Shown here: positions 10,569 to 59,653 of the stretch, one piece after another | Position numbering within the stretch: position 1 is the stretch's first letter | How the letters are laid out: each line of letters begins with the position of its first letter | From: Oscillospiraceae bacterium | Lineage (GTDB): Bacteria; Bacillota; Clostridia; Oscillospirales; Acutalibacteraceae | Direction of reading: 5' to 3' | DNA: 64,000 bases | Assembly: GCA_910574935.1 (NCBI GenBank) | Contig: CAJTCU010000001.1 | Span: forward strand, 421,695 to 485,694 | The notes under the pieces: model-generated | Told to the model about the DNA's origin: nothing | Database searches by the model: none | What the model saw: only the letters and a program-made list of their open reading frames with translations | Translations under genes and position numbers: made by a program

Positions 10569-10736
10569 TAGGGCTTGTTTGAAGCATGGAAAACGCCATC
10601 TTTTTGCCCAGAAGCGGCCCCTTTTCCGCGTCAAGTATCCTCGCCAATCTCGGAAGATTGATTTACGGCTTTTTCCTTGTAATAGACCCTTTCTGGGCAA
10701 TCATTTGCTATTTCCTCTATTTTCAAACAAGGCCTA
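10569..10736 (-). mobile_element. family 1 MITE-like element, copy A
   Basis: A 168-bp element from TAGGGCTTGTTTGAA to TTTTCAAACAAGGCCTA. It lies in the opposite orientation to copies B-D: read on the minus strand it matches them through the interior, including CCCAGAA...TTCTGGGC arms. TA stands at both ends. It encodes no transposase and can fold into one long imperfect hairpin. Confidence 0.8.
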
Positions 10737-12031: not shown

Positions 12032-12038
12032 ATCCTGC

Positions 12039-12203
12039 TAGGCTTGTTTGAACATAGAGAGAAATACAAATTTTTGACCAGGGGAGGTCCGTTGCATGGA
12101 AAATCCCGCAAGTCAACCTTAGCGGTGGACGAGGATTTCCCATGTGGAAAAGGGCCTCTTCTAGGCAAAAAGCCGGCGTTTTCAATGTTTCAGGCAAGCC
12201 CCA
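12039..12203 (+). mobile_element. family 1 MITE-like element, copy B
   Basis: About 165 bp from TAGGCTTGTTTGAA to TTTCAGGCAAGCCCCA. The right end has lost the final TA (CA here). The interior keeps the AAAGGGCCTCTTCTAGGCAAAAAG arm and the GGAAAATCCCGCAAGTCAA segment shared with copies C and D. It is more diverged than the other copies. Confidence 0.7.
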
Positions 12204-18046: not shown

Positions 18047-18213
18047 TTAAGGCAATACCGCACCATTCTAAGCACCGTATTGGGCAGTCAGATTTTTCGT
18101 CCGAGTGTACAGATTGAACGCCGTCAATCTCACCATTGACCAGCGAAAGCTGTGCGCTACCACGGAAAATCTGCAAGCAAGACGGTGCTTAGAATGGTGC
18201 GGTGTTGCCTTAA
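18047..18213 (+). mobile_element. family 2 MITE-like element, copy 1
   Basis: A 167-bp element from TTAAGGCAATACCGCACC to GGTGCGGTGTTGCCTTAA. The two ends are near-perfect inverted repeats for about 35 bases (through TTCTAAGCACCGT) and remain partly complementary further in. It encodes no protein. The same element, of identical length, occurs in the other orientation at 55383-55549. Confidence 0.85.
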
Positions 18214-18873: not shown

Positions 18874-18987
18874 TATAGTTAACGCGGTTCCAAAGGGGCA
18901 TTCTGCCTCTTTGGAAGTAGACGGCGTAGCCGCCCAGCCTAAAAATCGGTATGTATCGATTTTCAAGTGCGTTTCCTATATCTTCCT
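18874..18987 (+). mobile_element. family 3 MITE-like element, copy 1
   Basis: About 110 bp from ATATAGTTAACGCGGTT to AGTGCGTTTCCTATAT. It folds into three hairpins: CCAAAG...CTTTGG, GGCGTAGCCGCC and ATCGGTATGTATCGAT. The 30977-31083 copy has the same order of parts. It sits between the stop of the 284-aa gene and its terminator. Confidence 0.8.
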
Positions 18988-20583: not shown

Positions 20584-21089
20584 AAAGACACACTCCTTTC
20601 TCCCTTTTTGTTATTATCGACCGCAAATAATATAAATTAAGCGCTAAAAGGACATTGAAAACTGAAAAGTTTTTGTGCTATCAATGCCCCGGCCCTGCCG
20701 GCTCTCAAGCCCCTTTCTCTCACGGCGGCACACTTTTTTTAGGAAGCCCAGGCCACCAAAAGTTTGTGCTTTGGCCAAAAGGGATTTTTGATGGATGGCG
20801 CTATAGAAAACATCCTGTTTTAGAGCTGCTATGCGGCGGGTGGGCATTCTTAAAAAACACATATTTTCAATTTTCCCGGACAGACTAGTTGTTTGAAAAT
20901 AGAGGAAATGACGGACTTTTGCCCAGAAGAGGTCCATCGCAAGGAAAAAAACCGCAAGTTAATCTTCCGATTCACAAGGATTTTCGACGCGGAAAAAGGG
21001 CCTCTTATGGGCATAAAGACGGCGTTTTCGATTTTTCAAGCAAGGCCTAGCCTTGCAAACCAAAAACTTTATAAAGCGAGGGATGCATT
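20584..21089. other. 506-bp intergenic region with repeat copy
   Basis: It holds family 1 copy C on its right. Bases 20640-20885 contain no believable gene. They show short runs such as TGAAAACTGAAAAGTTTTTG and TTTGGCCAAAAG but no clear hairpin or terminal repeats. Confidence 0.5.
20886..21049 (+). mobile_element. family 1 MITE-like element, copy C
   Basis: A 164-bp element from TAGTTGTTTGAAAATAGAGG to TTTTTCAAGCAAGGCCTA, with TA at both ends. Its interior closely follows copy D (GCCCAGAAGAGGTCCAT, AACCGCAAGTTAATCTTCCG, GACGGCGTTTTCG). It ends about 40 bases before the DUF1540 gene, so it may supply that gene's leader. Confidence 0.82.
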
Positions 21090-29111: not shown

Positions 29112-29531
29112 GGGAACACCTTCTTTCCGAGAAAGCTATTTATTTCGTAAATCTCATAAATGATAAAGCCGGAAAAGGCGCGGGGAGTTTGGGGGTAAGC
29201 GTCTGCTGGCGGCAGACACGCTAGGAACTCACCGGCGCGAGAGCCGGGACCGCAGAAGCCCAAGGTCCTGTCCCTAGGGCTTGTTTGAAAATAGAGGAAA
29301 TGACGAATTTTTACCCAGAAGGGGTTCATTTCAAGGAAAAAACCGCAAAGCAATCTTCCGATTGGCGAGGATTTTTGACGCAGAAAGGGGCCCCTTCTGG
29401 GTAAAAAGACGGCGTTTCCGATTTTTCAAACAAGCCCTAAGCTTAAAAATCCGCTGCAAAAAGGGGAACCCGCACCCACTCACGCCCGGTCCGCGCATCC
29501 TGGCCCCCAAAAACACCCGCCAGCTTTTTCC
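29112..29531. other. 420-bp intergenic region with repeat copy
   Basis: It contains family 1 copy D. A small GTCTGCTGGCGGCAGAC hairpin lies at about 29201-29217. No gene is seen. Confidence 0.55.
29275..29439 (+). mobile_element. family 1 MITE-like element, copy D (best preserved)
   Basis: A 165-bp element from TAGGGCTTGTTTGAAAATAG to TTTTTCAAACAAGCCCTA. The outer 17 bases are perfectly inverted. A second inverted pair lies inside (TTTTTACCCAGAAGGGG with CCCCTTCTGGGTAAAAA), so the whole element can fold into one long hairpin. TA stands at both ends. Confidence 0.88.
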
Positions 29532-30976: not shown

Positions 30977-31083
30977 TATAGTTAACACAGTTCAAAAGAT
31001 GTTGAATACCTCTTTTGAACCAGGCGACATTGTCGCCCAGCTTGAAAATCGGTACATACCGATTTTCAAGTGTGTTTACTATA
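30977..31083 (+). mobile_element. family 3 MITE-like element, copy 2 (best preserved)
   Basis: A 107-bp element from TATAGTTAACACAGTTC to AAGTGTGTTTACTATA. It contains three hairpins: CAAAAGATG...CTCTTTTG, GGCGACATTGTCGCC and a perfect CTTGAAAATCGGTA/TACCGATTTTCAAG. No coding potential is seen. Confidence 0.85.
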
Positions 31084-34189: not shown

Positions 34190-34436
34190 TTAAGGCAGCA
34201 CCGTACAATTTACGGCTAACACCTTCACCTTAAGCGCTGTCTTGCTTGTACATTTTTGTTAACAGCTTTAGCCGATAGCTTCCGCTATTGCGCACAAGCG
34301 TTCCGTTTCCCAATCCTAAAGACCCTCACTGGTCTGATTGACCGCACTCAATAGAGCTACAAAGCAATTCTTGTACACTCTGACGAAAAACCTGAGGACA
34401 CAATACCGCACGTAGAACTTCGCAGTATTGCCTTAA
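34190..34436 (+). mobile_element. family 2 MITE-like element, diverged 247-bp copy 3
   Basis: The ends are TTAAGGCAGCACCGTACAAT and GCAGTATTGCCTTAA, in inverted orientation. The interior keeps CTGTCTTGCTTGTACA, TTGCGCACAAG and TCTGACGAAAAACCTGA, recognisably related to the 167-bp copies, with about 80 extra bases. It overlaps the control region of the activator gene. Confidence 0.65.
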
Positions 34437-34590
34437 AAATGATACCATCTTTCGACCTAAAAATCAACACATAGACCGAATACAATATATGGTGCTTTAT
34501 CTTTGTTTTTATAGTTAAATCTACCATGTGTACCCTTTCGCATCCTCATCAAACTATATCTTGGGCGCTCTGGCGTTTTCTTCACAATTA

Positions 34591-52060: not shown

Positions 52061-52149
52061 TTTAGCTGCATACATGCAGCTAAACATAAAGAGGTACCTC
52101 TTTATGTTTAGCTGCATACATGCAGCTAAACATAAAGAGGTACCTCTTT
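52061..52149. repeat. tandemly duplicated palindrome in ABC operon leader
   Basis: Bases 52061-52130 form a 70-bp near-perfect palindrome centred on GGTACC at 52093-52098. Its outer arms are TTTAGCTGCAT-AC-ATGCAGCTAAA. A 43-base unit is exactly repeated (52061-52103 and 52107-52149), giving the order P1-P2-P1-P2. It lies in the transcribed leader, so it would form strong RNA hairpins or a DNA cruciform. Confidence 0.85.
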
Positions 52150-55382: not shown

Positions 55383-55549
55383 TTAAGGCAACCCCGCACC
55401 ATTCAAAGCACCGTCTTGCTTGCAGATTTTCCGTGATAGCGCACAGCTTTCGCTGGTCAATGGTGAGATGGACGGCGCTCAATCTGTACCCTCTGACGAA
55501 AAATCTGACTGCCCAATACGGTGCTTAGAATTGTGGGGTATTGCCTTAA
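55383..55549 (-). mobile_element. family 2 MITE-like element, copy 2
   Basis: A 167-bp element, TTAAGGCAACCCCGCACC to GTGGGGTATTGCCTTAA. Its reverse complement aligns along the full length with copy 1 (18047-18213), including GCTGTGCGCTA, ACCATTGACCAGCGAAAGC and TCTGACTGCCCAATACGG. Confidence 0.85.
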
Positions 55550-59375: not shown

Positions 59376-59653
59376 TTTCTTAACGCAGTTCAAAAGAGCC
59401 ATCATGCCTCTTTATAAATCCCTGGTAAAGCCCTTTTGCTTGAAAATGGGCATATTGTGAATTTTCAAGCTGGCCGACTAGGGCTGGTTTGAAAATAGAG
59501 AAAATGCCGTCTTTTTGCCCTGGCCGGTGCGGTTTTCCACACACAAATCCGCCCGGACCGGGCAAAAAGACGGTGTTTGCGATTTTTCAAACAAGCCCTA
59601 CGCCGCCTGGTTCAAAAGAGATATTCTACCGCTTTTGAACTGTGTTAACTATA
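59375..59653 (-). mobile_element. family 3 MITE-like element, copy 3, interrupted by a family 1 element
   Basis: The right end is the exact family 3 end (GAACTGTGTTAACTATA; the complement reads TATAGTTAACACAGTTC). The left end keeps TTAACGCAGTTCAAAAGAG with a decayed TATAG. Between lies a family 1 copy (59479-59600) inserted in the middle hairpin, where the intact copy reads GGCGACATTGTCGCC. The left end touches the GH3 stop codon. Confidence 0.82.
59479..59600 (+). mobile_element. family 1 MITE-like element, copy E (short, nested)
   Basis: A 122-bp element from TAGGGCTGGTTTGAAAATAG to TTTTTCAAACAAGCCCTA, with TA on both sides. About 45 bases of the usual interior are missing. The inner arms CCGTCTTTTTGCCC and GGGCAAAAAGACGG still pair. 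Confidence 0.85.

Follow-up and report, generated by a model that had tools for sequence, protein, structure and literature searches.

A family of short TA-flanked hairpin elements in an Oscillospiraceae genome shares its ends with IS5-family insertion elements and carries a structured tip

Transposase-free MITEs with IS5-family ends are already known. Those described in PMC4596501 include MITE293/700, MITEPgRS and BrickBuilt of Porphyromonas gingivalis and the ATR elements of Neisseria (ISNme1). Within the IS5 family, a 2-bp target duplication is reported for most members of the IS427 group, which are also marked by a characteristic length and two overlapping frames, in PMC3281130, a paper on Paracoccus elements. 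The pneumococcal hairpin RUP is assigned to a different family, that of IS630-Spn1, in PMC2229807. Here we describe a hairpin element of an Oscillospiraceae genome that resembles these systems at its ends and in its target site, and that carries a structured interior of its own.

The window, which is the whole stretch of 64,000 nucleotides analysed here, contains five copies of the element (Table 1). An earlier note made from the letters alone had listed the five, and the observation is real: a covariance model of the element (R1) recovered all of them at those positions with E-values from 2.4e-48 to 1.2e-22, R1 having been built partly from window copies. All five are palindromic and score more weakly on the opposite strand too. 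TA stands at both ends in four of the five, as had been claimed, and the 12039 copy, which R1 starts at 12038, ends in CA. Folding into one long hairpin is borne out by the covariance model and, for the 29275 copy as the one window copy submitted to energy folding, by a single hairpin of -84.7 kcal/mol against a shuffled mean of -41.05 (z -10.8; z -8.9 for the opposite strand). The interior arms said to be common to all copies, CCCAGAAGGGG with CCCCTTCTGGG, match letter for letter in the 29275 copy and vary in the others. The inclusion of the 59479 copy holds by its match to R1, but this copy is shortened internally and gives no match to the model of the apical core (R2). The core of the 29275 copy, from which R2 was partly built, has the conserved internal loops and a stem capped by a tetraloop.

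Table 1. Positions of the hairpin copies and their apical cores in the window, and of decayed transposase relatives elsewhere in the same genome
Feature	Position	Strand	Remarks
MITE copy of the earlier note, 165 bp	29275..29439	+	17-base ends at 29275-29291 and 29423-29439; G014 has an empty site with one TA
57-base apical core of 29275 copy	29330..29386	+	Core model R2, E 1.5e-19
MITE copy, 168 bp, TA at both ends	10569..10736	-	Missing in G014, junction not clean
Core of 10569 copy	10623..10681	-	R2, E 1.1e-8
MITE copy with CA instead of TA at its decayed right end	about 12039..12203	+	Missing in G014, flanks different by a few bases
Core of 12039 copy	12093..12150	+	R2, E 1.8e-7
MITE copy, left end altered after TA	20886..21049	+	Same place occupied in G014
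Core of 20886 copy	20938..20995	+	R2, E 3e-14
MITE copy, 122 bp, internally shortened, core lost, TA at both ends	59479..59600	+	R1
Decayed transposase relative	C21:23370-24092
Decayed transposase relative	C5:219177-219422
Decayed transposase relative	C11:35404-36116

The five copies belong to a large family. Throughout the 4.17-Mb genome (109 contigs), the 15-base end with at most two mismatches was matched 127 times on the forward and 127 times on the reverse strand, against 2 and 1 matches for the reversed pattern, indicating a family beyond chance. At first look 40 of 168 candidates were scored, and 40 distinct full or nearly full-length places were seen. From fetched stretches, which are a sample rather than a census, we extracted 47 elements of about 165 bp, 22 of about 186 bp, and 4 of 113 bp with other ends. 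The 69 copies of the two larger classes span 160-190 bp, the 186-bp class having an extra palindrome of 21 bp at the tip. Over their 165 bp, seven copies reach 99-100% identity, which shows recent spread, and the 47 copies of about 165 bp include groups of 7, 6, 4 and 3 at 97% identity or above. The elements are short, multicopy, bounded by inverted repeats and free of transposase, as MITEs are. Nine of the 69 sites lie within an ORF of at least 450 bp, compared with 78% of random window points, the ORFs being called mechanically. The search of related genomes that had been advised matched the 165-bp query in 13 of 28 congeners and in 1 of 31 more distant genomes, some of these matches being short or weak. 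A congener copy of 181 bp (L047 2811-2991) has an apparently duplicated tip stem. Among mobile elements, a plasmid collection yielded one copy only, at 74% identity (Anaerotruncus colihominis), and a phage collection had no record with the element; in IMG/VR, the 22-base end pattern occurred in four contigs and the long strict core pattern in none. The end and core sequence strings were not found in the set of papers searched, and among papers on MITEs with Faecalibacterium, with Clostridia or Oscillospiraceae, and on IS5-type MITEs we recognised none as treating this element.

Comparison with the congener G014, which has 98% identity to the window in a neighbouring gene, revealed the empty site of the 29275 copy. 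The site is uninterrupted in G014 and contains one TA, where the inserted element of the window is flanked by TA on each side. Among the four window copies covered by the contigs of G014, to which the 59479 copy does not belong, those at 10569, 12039 and 29275 are missing and that at 20886 is present. A clean junction is seen only at 29275; at 10569 and 12039 several bases are different, so that a simple TA duplication would fit these two junctions but is not proved by them. In addition, TA is found at both ends of 65 of the 69 extracted copies; in 56 of these 65 the first TA follows C/T and the last precedes A/G. The single-TA empty site and the TA ends thus support the earlier reading of a non-autonomous transposon with TA target duplication. 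Absence of empty sites or of a target duplication had been named as evidence against mobility, and both empty sites and duplication were found, which favours it.

The window also holds other repeats. A second palindromic family, flanked by TTAA, lies at 18047-18213, 55383-55549 and 34372-34437; its 18047 copy is missing in G014, a copy seems, by eye, to sit inside the IS5-type element L038, and locus L347 of another genus has related arms with the core at its tip. A third family, starting with TATAGTTAAC, lies at 18874-18980, 30977-31083 and 59604-59653, the 18874 copy being missing in G014 and the 59604 copy adjoining the MITE at 59479-59600. At 52061-52149, two identical 43-base direct repeats lie 46 bases apart and contain the palindrome TTTAGCTGCATACATGCAGCTAAA.

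A transposase gene bounded by the same ends was sought, as the earlier note had advised, and was found in IS5-family elements of related genera. DUF4096, an IS5-type domain, occurs in 8 of the 29 congeneric genomes searched. Locus L103 of the single-contig genome G022 is an element of 851 bp with the ends TAGGCCTTGTTTGAAAA and TAGAACTTGTTTGAAAA and TA on each side. Its two frames overlap at a run of GGGGGGAAAAAC, both exceed the cut-off of NCBIfam NF033580 (IS5 family transposase), and the Pfam domains DUF4096 and DDE_Tnp_1 are present. The second frame, taken as query, retrieved 100 related loci from named genomes, and 80 of them were retained; such loci occur in gut Clostridia, Anaerotruncus, Flavonifractor and Oscillibacter among them. 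A whole IS of 793-867 bp is present in 42 of the 80 loci, with both ends at most two mismatches from TAGGGCTTGTTTGAAAA, the 17-base end of the MITE. Exactly 851 bp was found for 22 of these 42, and in 13 of the 80 loci both 17-base ends are identical to those of the MITE. All 42 have TA at both ends, preceded by C/T in 42 and followed by A/G in 40 (one T and one N in the others), so that MITE and IS show the same Y-TA-R preference. The group name IS427 is given by traits, namely the length of about 850 bp, the 2-bp duplication and the two overlapping frames.

A second pair of this kind was observed in the same genome, where an IS5-type IS (L105, 1209-2233) and 113-bp MITEs have common TAGAGTCTGTTTTAAAA-type ends. 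MITEs of 113 bp sharing TAGAGTCTGTTTKAAAA-type ends with L105 are found in L016, L030, L293 and L294. In L279, L016, L293 and L294, MITEs of the two end types directly abut with one TA in common, every insertion remaking a CTAR site at its border. Two contigs start with the end of a truncated DDE_Tnp_1 transposase (L040 1-240 and L041 1-235) that closes with ...AAACAGATTCTAA; these pieces are probably collapsed multicopy IS.

The single TA at the empty 29275 site, the common ends, the Y-TA-R preference of MITE and IS, and the family of the transposase are all observed directly. We propose, with a probability of roughly 0.86, that the five copies are MITEs and that a transposase of the IS5 family, similar to the IS427 group, has moved them in trans. 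The enzyme would be made from the two overlapping frames, presumably through a frameshift, and would bind the common 17-base ends. It would then act in trans on the hairpin, inserting it at Y-TA-R with duplication of the TA. The active transposase may since have been lost from the genome, or may be missing in the assembly. The interior would be an older structured hairpin rather than a remnant of the IS, with the conserved 57-base module held at its tip.

The distribution of MITE and IS speaks against a simple form of this proposal. No intact cognate IS was found in the window's genome, a draft of 109 contigs, and only the decayed relatives of Table 1 were present. The MITE-carrying genomes G027, G013, G015, G024 and G026 have no DUF4096 above the cut-off and no DDE_Tnp_1, G024 having one DUF4096 match below it. 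G027 is 99% complete and holds 14 copies, which form 91 pairs, 6 of them with an identity of at least 98%; the other four genomes are less complete. The 165-bp query found no MITE in genome G022, where the cognate IS is intact. Both MITE and IS occur in G017, where the second IS frame is split. The likeliest explanation is that MITE copies outlive the transposase or that the transposase sits in gaps, while a helper other than an IS5-type transposase is conceivable.

The similarity between MITE and IS is limited to the ends, and the interior keeps its fold. Alignment A1 comprises 58 elements of the genus, namely 36 of the 47 own copies of about 165 bp, chosen so as to exclude near-duplicates, together with 22 copies of congeners; the 186-bp class was omitted because of its insert. 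In these 58 elements 87.3% of cells conform to a hairpin of 64 pairs. Both sides are changed in 225 cells, against a shuffled mean of 95.2 and 36 to 83 in slid controls. Core alignment A3 comprises 39 of 50 distinct cores. In the tip, a short capped stem sits above a pair of asymmetric internal loops, AAGGM/RACGCA and GCAR/GA with a bulged A. Conserved CCGCAAG and CGAGG flank this tip stem, whose letters vary freely and stay paired, and the loop is mostly T-N-N-C.

The structured tip recurs outside the genus. Of the 147 genomes and 86 genera of the order covered, 24 and 17, respectively, had a match to the whole-element model at E <=1e-3; the weak matches may be unrelated hairpins. The model of the 57-base core, built on the window's genus only, matched 23 of 36 outside sources at E <=1e-4, E-values of these models being rough and 28 of the 36 having previously been chosen by a whole-element match. 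These core matches fall in 12 other genera and two Anaerotruncus records. In a control of 32 sources (207 kb), the core model matched nothing beyond four window copies and, weakly (E 2e-4), the 113-bp MITE of L120, which lies at the same place as L294. A core alignment of 34 rows, fitted to the structure, pairs in 95.9% of cells, with changes on both sides in 13 of 17 pairs and a covariation score of 0.498, compared with 0.129 when shuffled and at most 0.086 when slid. Of the 36 sources, alignment A5 omits 13, mostly ones with a weak match or none; four IMG/VR contigs and eight congener loci were included in addition. In 10 of 24 rows from other genera, the arms beside the core lie within 0.03 of shuffled identity; the core identity is 0.63-0.81. 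The ends around the core also vary: L333 has GGGTACCTCTAAAAACC-type end repeats with TTCA on both sides, L332 has GAGTCTGCTTACC-type end repeats, and still others have no obvious end repeat. Against the core reading, loci L161, L169, L172 and L226 match the whole-element model at E 1e-11 to 1e-14 but give no core-model match at E <=1, and L177 gives one only at E 0.92; all five adjoin the cognate IS in named genera, and their core is seen by eye only. A strict core pattern was matched in only 3 of 394 genomes of the order, from one genus; as it demands GGATTT and misses the GCATTT form found by the models, this is no sign of restriction to a genus.

Two possible origins of the interior were rejected. 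Derivation from the IS was dismissed because the core model matched nothing in the IS-bearing control loci (18 of 80). A known RNA family was dismissed for lack of an Rfam fit: the window had no match over the curated threshold, and 11 core-bearing loci gave a sole match, pemK (RF02913), at 1052-1148 of L350, a locus of another genus, near the core-bearing element and outside it. Below the threshold, L004 matched only hairpin models of microRNA and snoRNA type, and L339 none. Presumed resemblances to attC sites, kink-turns and twister-sister ribozymes, examined by Rfam scans only, were dropped.

Other readings of the mobility and of the intergenic placement have to be weighed. The earlier note had suggested a non-autonomous relative of the IS630/Tc1-mariner group, for which the TA duplication is fitting, for which RUP of pneumococcus is a precedent (PMC2229807), and for which the genome offers six matches to the IS630-type domain DDE_3. 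TA duplication is also typical of IS427, and therefore TA alone does not point to IS630. Around the six DDE_3 matches of the window's own genome, no correctly oriented end pair was found within four mismatches, whereas identical ends are carried by IS5-family elements. The IS630 origin was rejected on these ends, and we consider it very improbable. The hairpins might instead be resident regulatory RNAs or terminators that spread long ago and are kept by selection for a role in neighbouring transcripts. Such a model would account for the strong hairpin on either strand of the 29275 copy, the location of most copies outside long ORFs, and the compensatory changes together with conserved unpaired bases; NEMIS and ERIC (PMC2229807) are precedents of MITE RNAs that act on neighbouring mRNAs. 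The sites that are empty in a close relative speak against residence. Where neighbouring ORFs run in one direction, 18 of 30 copies between them have the orientation of the genes and 12 the opposite one; this is no clear strand preference and gives no support for a role in read-through transcripts. This resident role is improbable, and we retain the IS5-family MITE reading.

Template switching of DNA within an imperfect palindrome can create and repair hairpin stems, according to PMC8794818, and could yield compensatory changes in the place of selection on the fold. The entire element is palindromic, and the outer arms are also changed on both sides in 30 of 64 pairs. We give this process a substantial chance, though somewhat under an even one. 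It leaves the conserved non-complementary loop bases AAGGC, GCA, GA and AACGCA without explanation. In the 24 rows from other genera, the majority share of these bases is mostly 0.74-1.0, the rows having been chosen by a model that favours the same bases. Alternatively, the tip may be a working nucleic-acid module, read as RNA or as single-stranded DNA by a protein of the host or the element. In many genera of the order it would have travelled between transposon ends of several unrelated sets; elements of different origin would then have one functional heart. We put this forward tentatively and hold it to be rather doubtful.

As MITEs with IS5-family ends are already described (PMC4596501), the mobility of the hairpins is ordinary, although with the correct transposase family named, what had been a guess becomes a pair that can be tested. 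Less ordinary is an interior that is neither an IS remnant nor free to drift, with a structured tip recurring across genera; this order-wide tip is a reason to follow up the MITE variant. If the tip is functional, it would help to explain why such hairpins succeed and what recognises them. Should template switching have shaped it, the family is a natural data set for that process, and a warning that covariation in repeats can mimic a selected RNA.

Compared with the known systems, the IS partner is similar to the IS427 group of the IS5 family (PMC3281130): it is about 850 bp long, has ends of some 17 bp and IS5-family domains, duplicates the 2-bp target TA and is read in two overlapping frames. 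The window elements have no transposase and are IS-like at their ends only. The MITEs of P. gingivalis and Neisseria, by their description in PMC4596501, differ in ends and interiors, and the duplications of BrickBuilt vary in length, while that of the window element is TA. Similar to RUP (PMC2229807), the window element is a short intergenic hairpin with a TA target and IS-shared ends, but it is assigned to IS5 instead of IS630. For the interior, the nearest comparison is with the candidate structured RNAs of the human microbiome (HMP2 series, Fremin-type screens), one class of which has palindromic characteristics according to PMC8040213, and the core could be among the 3161 candidates of that screen.
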